Below, piece by piece: positions 3,786 to 15,660 of a DNA stretch of 23,252 nucleotides. The position numbers were made by a program, and so were the translations under genes. The notes beneath the pieces were generated by a model, which saw nothing but the letters and a program-made list of their open reading frames with translations, searched no databases and had not been told where the DNA came from. Source of the DNA: Bacteroidia bacterium (GTDB lineage Bacteria; Bacteroidota; Bacteroidia; Bacteroidales; Azobacteroidaceae); assembly GCA_025996865.1 (NCBI GenBank), contig BNTV01000078.1, positions 1-23,252 on the forward strand, read 5' to 3'. Position 1 is the stretch's first letter. Each line of letters starts with the position of its first letter.

Positions 3786-3855
3786 GGTACAAGGTGAAAG
3801 GTAAATGGTACAGGAAAAGTAAATCGTGTACCGTGTACCTTTCACCGTGTACCTG
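3786..3855. repeat. Inverted heptad array, GGTNNNN-type units
   Basis: Ten successive 7-nt units span the junction between the ATPase and first permease genes. The first four are GGTACAA, GGTGAAA, GGTAAAT and GGTACAG. After two degenerate units the order continues as reverse complements (GTACCGT, GTACCTT, TCACCGT, GTACCTG). The two halves form a long imperfect hairpin around the middle. The ATPase stop codon (TGA at 3842-3844 on the minus strand) and its last codons lie in the array. The same unit type, including the GGTGAAA core, recurs at 15619-15660. Confidence 0.88.
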
Positions 3856-4522
3856 TATTTATTATTTCTTCAATGATTCCATCTTTCAAATGAATGATTT
3901 TATCCGTAGCATCCGCAACGCTTTGTTCGTGAGTTACGATAATCATTGTCATGCCCTCCTTGTTTACTTCCCGAAGAAGTTGGATCATTTCTTCCGAAGT
4001 TTTGCTGTCCAAAGCGCCGGTAGGTTCGTCTGCCAGAATAACTTGCGGCTTGGAAATCAAGGCGCGGGCAATGGCCACCCGTTGTTTTTGTCCGCCCGAC
4101 AATTCATTAGGACTGTGTTCCGCCCATTCTTTCAAGCCCATTTTGTCCAAATATTCCAACGCAATGCGGTTTCTCTTTTTCCGGCTTATTCCCTGATAAT
4201 AGAGCGGAAGCGCCACATTTTCCATTGCATTTTTGAAATTAATCAGATTGAACGATTGAAAGACAAAACCAATCATCGTATTCCGCAATTCTGCCGCCCG
4301 CGATTCACTCAGGTCTCTTATCAAAATATCATTCAAATAATAATTACCTTCATCGTAAGTATCCAAAATACCTAAAATATTGAGTAAGGTTGATTTTCCG
4401 GAACCGGACGCCCCCATAATTGAAATCATTTCCCCTCGCTTGACTTCCAGATTGATTCCTTTCAAAACATGAAGCGGAGCCCCATTATAGTAAGTTTTAT
4501 TGATTCGTTGCAATTTTATCAT
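3842..4522 (-). CDS. ABC transporter ATP-binding protein (MacB/LolD-like)
   Basis: This cytoplasmic ATPase powers the efflux operon. Counting from the ATG at 4520-4522 (MIKLQRINKTYY) it has about 226 residues. A TTG four codons upstream also opens the frame, but the ATG fits the family's usual start better. All key motifs are present: Walker A GASGSGKST near residue 37, a Q-loop (VFQSFN), the signature LSGGQ near 141, Walker B VILADEPTGALD, and the switch histidine in IIVTHEQ. The length and motif spacing match the MacB/LolD/FtsE subfamily. The last residues (TGTR) and the stop codon come from the heptad array, so the C-terminus is probably variable between strains. Confidence 0.94.
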   Translation of the reverse strand: MIKLQRINKTYYNGAPLHVLKGINLEVKRGEMISIMGASGSGKSTLLNILGILDTYDEGNYYLNDILIRDLSESRAAELRNTMIGFVFQSFNLINFKNAMENVALPLYYQGISRKKRNRIALEYLDKMGLKEWAEHSPNELSGGQKQRVAIARALISKPQVILADEPTGALDSKTSEEMIQLLREVNKEGMTMIIVTHEQSVADATDKIIHLKDGIIEEIINTGTR

Positions 4523-4615
4523 TATTCTCAGCAATTTTTATATTTAGACGAAAAAACAACATTTTTGTTACATTAATAACGAGATTTATATTAATATATT
4601 TTCCATTTATGGCTA

Positions 4616-4646
4616 CAAATGTAAAAATAAAAAAGGTACTTTGCAA
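4616..4646 (-). promoter_or_regulatory. Candidate promoter of the ABC efflux operon
   Basis: The minus strand reads TACATTTG at 4623-4616, matching the Bacteroidetes -7 box TAnnTTTG. A TTG lies at 4646-4644, 20 nt upstream of it. It sits about 95 nt before the ATPase start codon. The -33 element is only a three-base match, so this is moderate evidence. Confidence 0.5.
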
Positions 4647-4794
4647 TACCAAGTATATTATTTATACAAAATCTAATTTATTCGTCTGCATGATACAGAT
4701 TTTTCTTTATGATTCTCAACGTTTTAACCTCTCTCAATTCATTGTTTTCGAAAAATCAATTTTGCGATACCTACAAAATTAGGATTAAAATGAT

Positions 4795-14798: not shown

Positions 14799-14813
14799 TT
14801 GTTGGGATTTTAC

Positions 14814-15611
14814 TTATATAAACAAGAAAAGACTCAAAGCCATCACGAGCATCCCAGCGACGACGCCCGTAATCGAAAGGTGATGTTTCCCATATTTTTC
14901 GGCAGTCGGCAACAACTCATCCAAAGAAATGAAAACCATAATTCCCGCAACACCGGCTAAAATGAATCCATTAAGCGTCGGCGTCCAGAACTTGAAAAGG
15001 AAAATATAGGCTAATAGCGCGCCAACCGGCTCCGAAACGCCGGATAAGAAAGAATACCAGAAAGCTTTTTTGCGGCTGCCCGAAGCGTGATAAATGGGTA
15101 TGGCAACAGCAATCCCTTCGGGAATGTTGTGAATCGCAATCGCCACCGTAATAGGAATGGCAATATCCAAAGACGTTAAAGCCGAAGTAAAAGTGGCAAT
15201 CCCTTCCGGGAAGTTGTGTATGCCAATAGAAAGAGCGACCATGATTCCGGTTCGCTTCAGACTCGTTTTGCTCTGCATTTCCTCTACACCATGGGCTTCG
15301 TGCGGATTCACCTGTTCGGGAATGGCAAAATCAATGGCATTGATCAGGATGATTCCTCCGAAAAAAGCCAGAATCATGTACAAAGTTCCCGTTTTGTCTC
15401 CGAAAGCCGCTGTTAATCCGGATAGTGCGGTCGGCATCATTTCCATAAAAGACACGTAAATCATGATGCCGGCCGAAAATCCTAAAGACAAACTGAGGAA
15501 GTTTTTATTGGTCTTTTTAGTCAATAAAGCAATCCCGCTGCCGATGCCGGTTGATAAGCCGGCTATGGCAGTCAGGAAAAAAGCAAATACAATGTTTGAA
15601 TTGTCGGGCAT
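14814..15611 (-). CDS. zupT: ZIP-family divalent metal transporter (ZupT-like)
   Basis: This inner-membrane importer of zinc and related divalent metals has about eight helices and 265 residues from the ATG at 15609-15611 (MPDNSNIVFAFFLTAIAG). The metal-site helices carry HNFPEGIATF and HNIPEGIAVA, the paired HN(F/I)PEG motifs of ZupT. Between helices III and IV is a short histidine-containing loop (NPHEAHGVEE). An ATG seven codons upstream (15632) also opens the frame, but those residues would be encoded by a heptad repeat array and lack family resemblance, so I prefer the internal start. It follows glyA on the same strand, with 43 nt between them. Metal preference cannot be read from the sequence. 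Confidence 0.92.
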   Translation of the reverse strand: MPDNSNIVFAFFLTAIAGLSTGIGSGIALLTKKTNKNFLSLSLGFSAGIMIYVSFMEMMPTALSGLTAAFGDKTGTLYMILAFFGGIILINAIDFAIPEQVNPHEAHGVEEMQSKTSLKRTGIMVALSIGIHNFPEGIATFTSALTSLDIAIPITVAIAIHNIPEGIAVAIPIYHASGSRKKAFWYSFLSGVSEPVGALLAYIFLFKFWTPTLNGFILAGVAGIMVFISLDELLPTAEKYGKHHLSITGVVAGMLVMALSLFLFI

Positions 15612-15618
15612 AATTTCA

Positions 15619-15660
15619 GGTACACGGTACATGGTGAAAGGTACCTTTCACCTTTTACCA
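15619..15660. repeat. Inverted heptad array with a 20-bp perfect palindrome
   Basis: Six 7-nt units run GGTACAC, GGTACAT, GGTGAAA, GGTACCT, TTCACCT and TTTACCA, so direct units pass into their reverse complements. At the centre, 15633-15652 is a perfect 20-bp palindrome (GGTGAAAGGTACCTTTCACC). The glyA stop codon (15655-15657, minus strand) lies inside the array. Units match those at 3786-3855. Confidence 0.9.

Follow-up and report, generated by a model that had tools for sequence, protein, structure and literature searches.

Heptanucleotide repeat arrays in a Bacteroidales genus: retained cores, hairpins of one polarity and change of unit at single sites

Described heptanucleotide repeat systems

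Among the intergenic tandem repeats of prokaryotes, heptamers have been described as the most frequent, with no clue to their function (PMC6344855, in the portion of its text available), and the preference for seven bases is a known puzzle with no accepted explanation. A published guess is that seven is the length of DNA touching the polymerase (PMC4679880, citing Mrazek 2007, with the same guess in PMC4692102, both in excerpt). It has also been reported that loops of more than 3 nt are poorly mismatch-repaired (PMC4060949, in excerpt), which would account for the missing units of 1–3 nt, yet would not explain why 7 is preferred to 5, 6, and 8.

The arrays analyzed here share with the heptanucleotide long simple sequence repeats (Mrazek 2007 via PMC4679880; PMC6344855) a 7-nt unit that is mostly intergenic, commonest and unexplained, and differ from them, as far as the accessible text of these papers goes, in having a grammar of core plus variable part, no divergent order in the genus and a change of unit at the same site. 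The TAACTGA arrays of Beggiatoaceae, Cyanobacteria, and Bacteroidetes, in the part of PMC4679880 available, are likewise patchy intergenic heptads which are missing from the same gap in close relatives, lie in some cases within ORFs and are common to distant phyla; however, that system has one dominant heptamer, placed mostly just 5′ of start codons in its main genome, whereas several unit classes per genome, many of them hairpin-paired, are found here. The GGGAATC/GGGGAYT arrays of Xanthomonas and Nostoc (PMC4692102, in excerpt) are also intergenic heptads, for which convergent inverted pairs and variation of length and sequence among close species have already been described, but they form G-quadruplexes, whereas the present units are AT-rich or of GGT type. 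The Rickettsia palindromic elements resemble the present arrays as palindromic DNA lying in frame in unrelated conserved genes, but are families of ~150 bp with a conserved peptide, while the present arrays keep no more than the 7-nt period and a short core (PMC10969869, citing Ogata 2000, 2002, in the text available). Heptamer dominance is thus already published, and what is added or quantified here is the core grammar, the one-sided polarity, the fast turnover and the in-frame arrays. A title-level search of the literature, most subscription papers lying outside it, turned up no further title dealing with a core grammar, with polarity or with heptads in frame.

Seven as the dominant period

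The window, which is the whole stretch of 23,252 nt analyzed, is contig C78 of the source genome (5.42 Mb, 421 contigs, 88% complete). The initial annotation had proposed a strict 7-nt period at five places (Table 1), and this was borne out by Tandem Repeats Finder (period 7 at 2481–2509, 3825–3857, 5554–5596, and 5613–5643, with weaker rows of other periods also in its output) and, independently, by matching periods of 4–30 across the full window, where periods 7, 14, and 21, the last two being multiples of seven, were alone in exceeding the scan threshold. The sites had been described as intergenic, which holds for those lying between genes, while two run into a gene end. We take both genes flanking the first array to be ABC-permease-like and those flanking the first GGT hairpin to be permease-like and ATPase-like. 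The two arrays of the trmB–mrp gap have opposite polarity, and both GGTNNNN sites are inverted heptad pairs. RNA folding against dinucleotide shuffles gave z = −8.7 for 3786–3857 and −4.6 for 15620–15665, and was weak for two AATT sites of the window (z −1.6 and −1.7). A terminator role of the arrays was rejected, as none of the 22 consensus matches to an intrinsic terminator (GC stem then T run) in window positions 1–18000 fell at any array.

Table 1. Period-seven sites of the window and the genes bounding one gap; gene names are presumed assignments.
Feature	Positions	Strand	Context
TCGTAAT (AATTCGT) array, 4.1 units	2481..2509	+	between two co-directional genes
GGTNNAN / NTNNACC heptad hairpin, 4 + 4 units	3786..3857	.	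between co-directional genes
trmB-like gene	4825..5568	+	left side of gap compared among congeners
AATTGAG array, 6.1 units	5554..5596	+	start inside last codons of trmB
TCGTAAT (AATTCGT) array, 4.4 units	5613..5643	+	end 2 nt before mrp ATG
mrp/ApbC-like gene	5646..6749	+	right side of trmB–mrp gap
GGTNNAN / NTNNACC palindrome, spacer-less	15619..15659	.	covers stop codon of glyA-like gene

The right part of the window carries what are presumably IS66-like (17861–19207) and IS1595-like (20617–21414) transposase ORFs. No array lies there, as had been pointed out, although with five sites only this proves little. Two other features of the window were recorded. Overlapping minus-strand ORFs at 8277–9281 and 7726–8319 (window 7726–9281) are perhaps one frameshifted gene, and a large palindrome around CCCCCGCCCCCTAAAGGGGGAG occurs at ~12765–12860, between genes which we take to be polynucleotide phosphorylase-like and amidotransferase-like, with similar CCCCTTTAGGGG repeats in locus L032.

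Across 1.34 Mb of the genus and order, comprising nine sample sets drawn from ten genomes, 40 arrays of period 7 were found, compared with 0, 2, 4, and 8 of periods 5, 6, 8, and 9; several of the stretches from G022, G058, G017, G005, G004, and G025 lay on contigs already matched in earlier searches. Equal frequency of the neighboring periods, the outcome that would have spoken against a special role for seven, is thus not what the sample shows. The same scan gave 14 arrays of period 21, nine of 23 and six each of 12, 14, and 24, and none of period 7 in shuffled sequence, while period-7 arrays were absent from the sample sets of G020, G049, and G025 with G003. A 400-kb scan of the source genome (20 stretches, those of C5, C7, and C16 being previously known to contain TCGTAAT matches) gave 13 period-7 arrays and at most four of any other period. 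A further 400 kb of the congener G026, about one eighth of its genome, gave five arrays of period 7, five of period 12 and one of period 8. In 80 loci of other organisms, which were picked for (AATTCGT)x4, there were 93 further period-7 arrays, with 0, 2, 4, and 8 of periods 5, 6, 8, and 9; periods 21 and 27 had nine and 12 arrays. Searches of the whole source genome matched TCGTAAT x3 (≤2 mismatches) 63 times, overlapping registers counted, and GGTNNAN x4 83 times, with reversed controls at 0 in both cases. By a crude ORF mask, 11 of the 40 arrays lay at ≥90% within an ORF of at least 100 aa and 29 did not. These arrays accordingly fit the heptanucleotide simple sequence repeats, being tandem 7-nt units above both chance and neighboring periods and mostly intergenic; of the copy-number change by slippage expected in that class, what was seen are differences between species, in the LeuRS and MurF loops.

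Cores, hairpins and turnover

The initial annotation had treated TCGTAAT, AATTGAG, and GGTNNNN as three sequence-unrelated unit types. However, TCGTAAT is a rotation of AATTCGT, which has AATT in phase in common with AATTGAG, so that the three types reduce to two core classes, AATTNNN and GGTNNAN, and are not fully unrelated. The core is retained. Across 58 AATT arrays from the genus and order data, 37 of 992 core cells deviated from the array consensus compared with 104 of 744 cells at other positions, a result helped somewhat by the core having been picked ahead of the test. Counted by array, variation lay outside the core only in 37, in the core only in one, in both parts in nine and in neither in 11, and the contrast persisted once CpG units were removed (22/420 core versus 54/315 other cells). 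It is weaker in other phyla, with 72 of 2600 core cells against 139 of 1950 others, and 18 arrays varying only outside the core against 11 varying only within it. In 17 GGT arrays, columns 1–3 and 6 were steady and columns 4, 5, and 7 variable. RRYNNNN was dropped as a universal grammar because, given a free choice of rotation and strand, nearly every heptamer conforms to it.

The paired arrays of the genus have one polarity. Convergent AATTACN pairs with a spacer of 4–34 nt gave 48 matches at 37 sites (a manual count once registers were merged) in 13 of 38 congeners, and no divergent order was found in any of the 38. Matches to the reversed control numbered 13 in G022 and four in G009, and the control is not clean for these two genomes. 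Those control matches perhaps represent another heptad hairpin class. Spacers differed site by site with two exceptions, one spacer being common to G000:C5 and G026:C45 and those of G020:C118 and C166 being near-identical. GGT pairs up to 60 nt apart were convergent in 11 cases and divergent in none in the genus data, and convergent in 12 and divergent in none among viral contigs picked for GGTNNAN, outside contig L496. In this contig, GGT/ACC heptad hairpins of both orders alternate over a long run, and of its GGT neighbors ten are convergent and six divergent. Outside the genus, two Nostocaceae loci (L123, L133), read by eye, have the divergent AATTACG order. Exact hairpin patterns, which were too strict, found no divergent site and one convergent site, in the source genome only, among 395 genomes phylum-wide. 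The two arms of a GGT hairpin are also likelier to be alike within a site than between sites, the observed likeness being reached in 3 of 5000 permutations for the 11 genus pairs and in 1 of 5000 for the 12 viral-contig pairs.

Comparison of sister species shows rapid turnover of the arrays, a given gap or loop holding different units or none. Of 30 loci, 19 allowed the trmB–mrp gap to be read (the remaining 11 contained one of the two genes only), and four of the 19 carried heptads, namely AATTGAG with AATTCGT in the source genome, an AATTACG hairpin (L174), a TTTTAAG type (L176) and AATTAGA (L179). The 15 heptad-free gaps include two relatives at 81–87% identity (L175, L177). In the loop of a LeuRS-like gene, for which 25 loci were fetched out of 38 matching genomes, 20 had an identical 94-bp form without array and four had arrays, with AATTACG in the source genome and G004, an AAGARNC type of equal length in G026, which is the closest, and an 8-nt unit in G010; G033 had a 6-nt gain without array. 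A MurF loop, by eye, carried arrays in at least eight of 24 loci read, with units including GGTACAC, GGTGAAG, GGCGAAG, AATGGAR, GTGGAAA, and AGTTACC/GGTAACT, and heptad hairpins with different units were present at four of 15 distinct sites of an AcrB-family loop. Since sister species hold unlike heptamers of equal period at one site, drift of one repeat family gives no explanation, as the initial annotation had argued. AAGARNC x3 was not found in the 400 kb sampled elsewhere in G026 (about one eighth of the genome), which speaks for an origin on the spot rather than for copies made from a common unit. The five period-7 arrays of that sample (AGTTGAA, AAACCTG, and AACTCTC types and one AATTACG) were unlike the common arrays of the source genome, and GGT..A. 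x3 had no match in it compared with 18 in the source-genome sample.

Arrays lie in frame in the conserved LeuRS-like, MurF-Alr, MurD, and AcrB-family genes. Pfam domains of host proteins were the LeuRS editing domain, Mur ligases with alanine racemase, GT2, ACR_tran, GFO/IDH/MocA, and OEP, and a protein search with the MurD insert returned itself alone among three candidates. The LeuRS-like gene appears to be split in part of the genus. Its ORF in the source genome (L001 1058–2693) stops at 545 aa and is followed by another ORF, and in 14 of the 25 loci (L291–L315) it ends at ~545 aa at a conserved place (..GRAKDW.Y..), with arrays or without, while in ten it continues to the locus end; the G004 array sits in an ORF running off its locus.

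Such in-frame arrays in unrelated genes recall a mobile palindromic element, of the Rickettsia or MITE-like kind, that copies itself into gaps and genes and has the heptads as its internals. Its hairpin form, the same heptads in dispersed copies, the inverted arms at the convergent AATTACN sites and a one-sided polarity like that of terminal inverted repeats would all fit. However, nearly all arm spacers are site-specific and sister species differ in unit at the same site, so a conserved family sequence of ~150 bp is not what the sites contain; no sequence shared beyond the heptads was seen, and no target duplication could be resolved at the trmB–mrp gap or the LeuRS loop. The GGT mosaics compared on C12, C13, and C27 are long paralogous regions with a DUF5119 ORF (C12 versus C13, 2386 bp at 92%; C12 versus C27 in pieces). 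We regard a mobile element as an unlikely source of the arrays. In the DUF5119 protein of L255 (2–1030, minus strand) a GGT/ACC heptad hairpin makes up the N-terminal, signal-peptide-like part (YLLPFTLYLLLLFCSC), and it has been copied along with the gene, near copies being on C13 and C27.

Placement, spread and origin of the arrays

Outside ORFs, 39 AATTACG-class sites of the source genome and congeners had both neighbors known by a simple ORF caller (four sites within ORFs and two with one unknown side were left out); 37 of them lay between co-directional genes, two between convergent and none between divergent ones. The excess is modest given the baseline of the source genome, in which co-directional genes make up 204 of 250 pairs overall and 83 of the 111 pairs whose gap is 30–200 nt. 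Of 21 single arrays, 16 had the closer gene on the side of their AATT. This placement, the strong folding of the GGT sites and the one-sided polarity would suit selection for a function in operons, such as an intercistronic stem-loop acting on mRNA stability or translation. We consider this improbable, as the same gap is filled or empty among sister species and arrays also occur in protein loops; folding is weak at the two AATT sites, the window arrays have no terminator-like match and the gene calling was crude.

Spread of palindromes by RAYT-like (Y1_Tnp) transposases, as in REP systems, would be expected to leave arrays near such genes. Y1_Tnp occurs in 16 of 38 congeners, with 12 matches in the source genome, and its counts correlate with those of AATTACG arrays (rho 0.45, p 0.008, 34 genomes, uncorrected for relatedness); near one such gene (L705), at 348–401 nt, there are also arrays whose periods, 14 and 21, are multiples of seven. 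Against this, none of 20 Y1_Tnp genes read (of ~62 matches) had a period-7 array within 500 nt, G058 (97% complete) and G017 (96%) carry arrays without a Y1_Tnp match, and nine of 20 array-bearing genomes have none. The neighborhoods do not support spread of this kind despite the correlation, and it was set aside as extremely unlikely. Locus L705 (1696–3018, G000 C10) is of note in itself, as both flanks of its Y1_Tnp gene have GC-rich arrays, of periods 21, 14, 12, 30, and 11, that are unlike the heptads elsewhere.

The distribution of the arrays is patchy. TCGTAAT x3 (≤1 mismatch) was found in 22 of 58 genomes, 20 of them among the 34 of the genus, source included, and two among the 24 belonging to other families of the order. 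In GTDB genomes, at least 115 stretches contain (AATTCGT)x4 without mismatch, and the matches listed include Nostocales and other Cyanobacteria, many Bacteroidota, Ignavibacteria, Chloroflexi, Akkermansia, an Acidobacteria MAG, Vibrio sagamiensis (Gammaproteobacteria), and CPR MAGs. Such a range could point to horizontal spread of particular arrays along with genes between phyla, as MacGregor (2015) argues for TAACTGA (PMC4679880, in excerpt). However, turnover at single sites within the genus makes common ancestry of cross-phylum arrays hard to keep, and AATTCGT is rare in viral contigs (11 stretches, compared with 18 for AATTGAG, two for the reversed pattern and one for one scramble), and we judge horizontal spread to be very unlikely. 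GGTNNAN was found in at least 120 viral stretches, a modest excess over 68 for the reversed pattern and 76 for an 8-nt version, and a strictly privileged status of GGTNNAN was rejected. Viral contigs picked by the 8-nt pattern held 18 other period-7 arrays and 12 of period 8.

The explanation that we prefer, with about an even chance of being right, is that these long simple-sequence arrays are born and remodeled locally by slippage and fold-back copying and kept where they are tolerated. A nascent DNA strand would slip or fold back upon itself and re-prime seven bases off, at a short core (AATT or GGT..A), which would add units by sevens and, on fold-back, leave inverted copies beside the array. 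The arrays would then persist where they are least harmful, such as short gaps between co-directional genes, protein loops and signal peptides. We infer that the core may serve as the re-priming site and that the polymerase contact length may be the reason for seven, although core retention could instead reflect selection. A common process working in steps of seven had been proposed in the initial annotation; the dominance of period 7 and the different units at the same site speak for it, while the units are not as fully unrelated as was supposed. Counting against slippage and fold-back are the 8-nt unit at one LeuRS site, the equal number of arrays of periods 7 and 12 in G026 and the lack of period-7 arrays in three sample sets. 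Slippage from random seeds, which were judged by eye alone, does not predict that one heptamer recurs in dozens of places per genome and in many phyla; one-sided polarity is likewise not predicted by local slippage and is unexplained by this process.

It is quite unlikely, though conceivable, that a repeat-making activity reads a core of 3–5 nt at exact seven-nt steps and lays heptads directionally on both sides of a point, giving hairpins of one polarity in gaps and genes of many phyla. It would then be a standing source of in-frame peptides, of the YELRITN type from AATTACG and of the GRRYKVQ and LPFTFHL types from GGT heptads. Core retention and a polarity of 37 convergent sites with no divergent one found are constraints on any mechanism, and plain slippage predicts neither. 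The congeners make the puzzle testable, as one gap or loop can be followed through many species in filled and empty forms and with varied units. The in-frame arrays of the MurF-Alr, MurD, LeuRS-like, and AcrB-family genes represent a route from repeat DNA to protein sequence.
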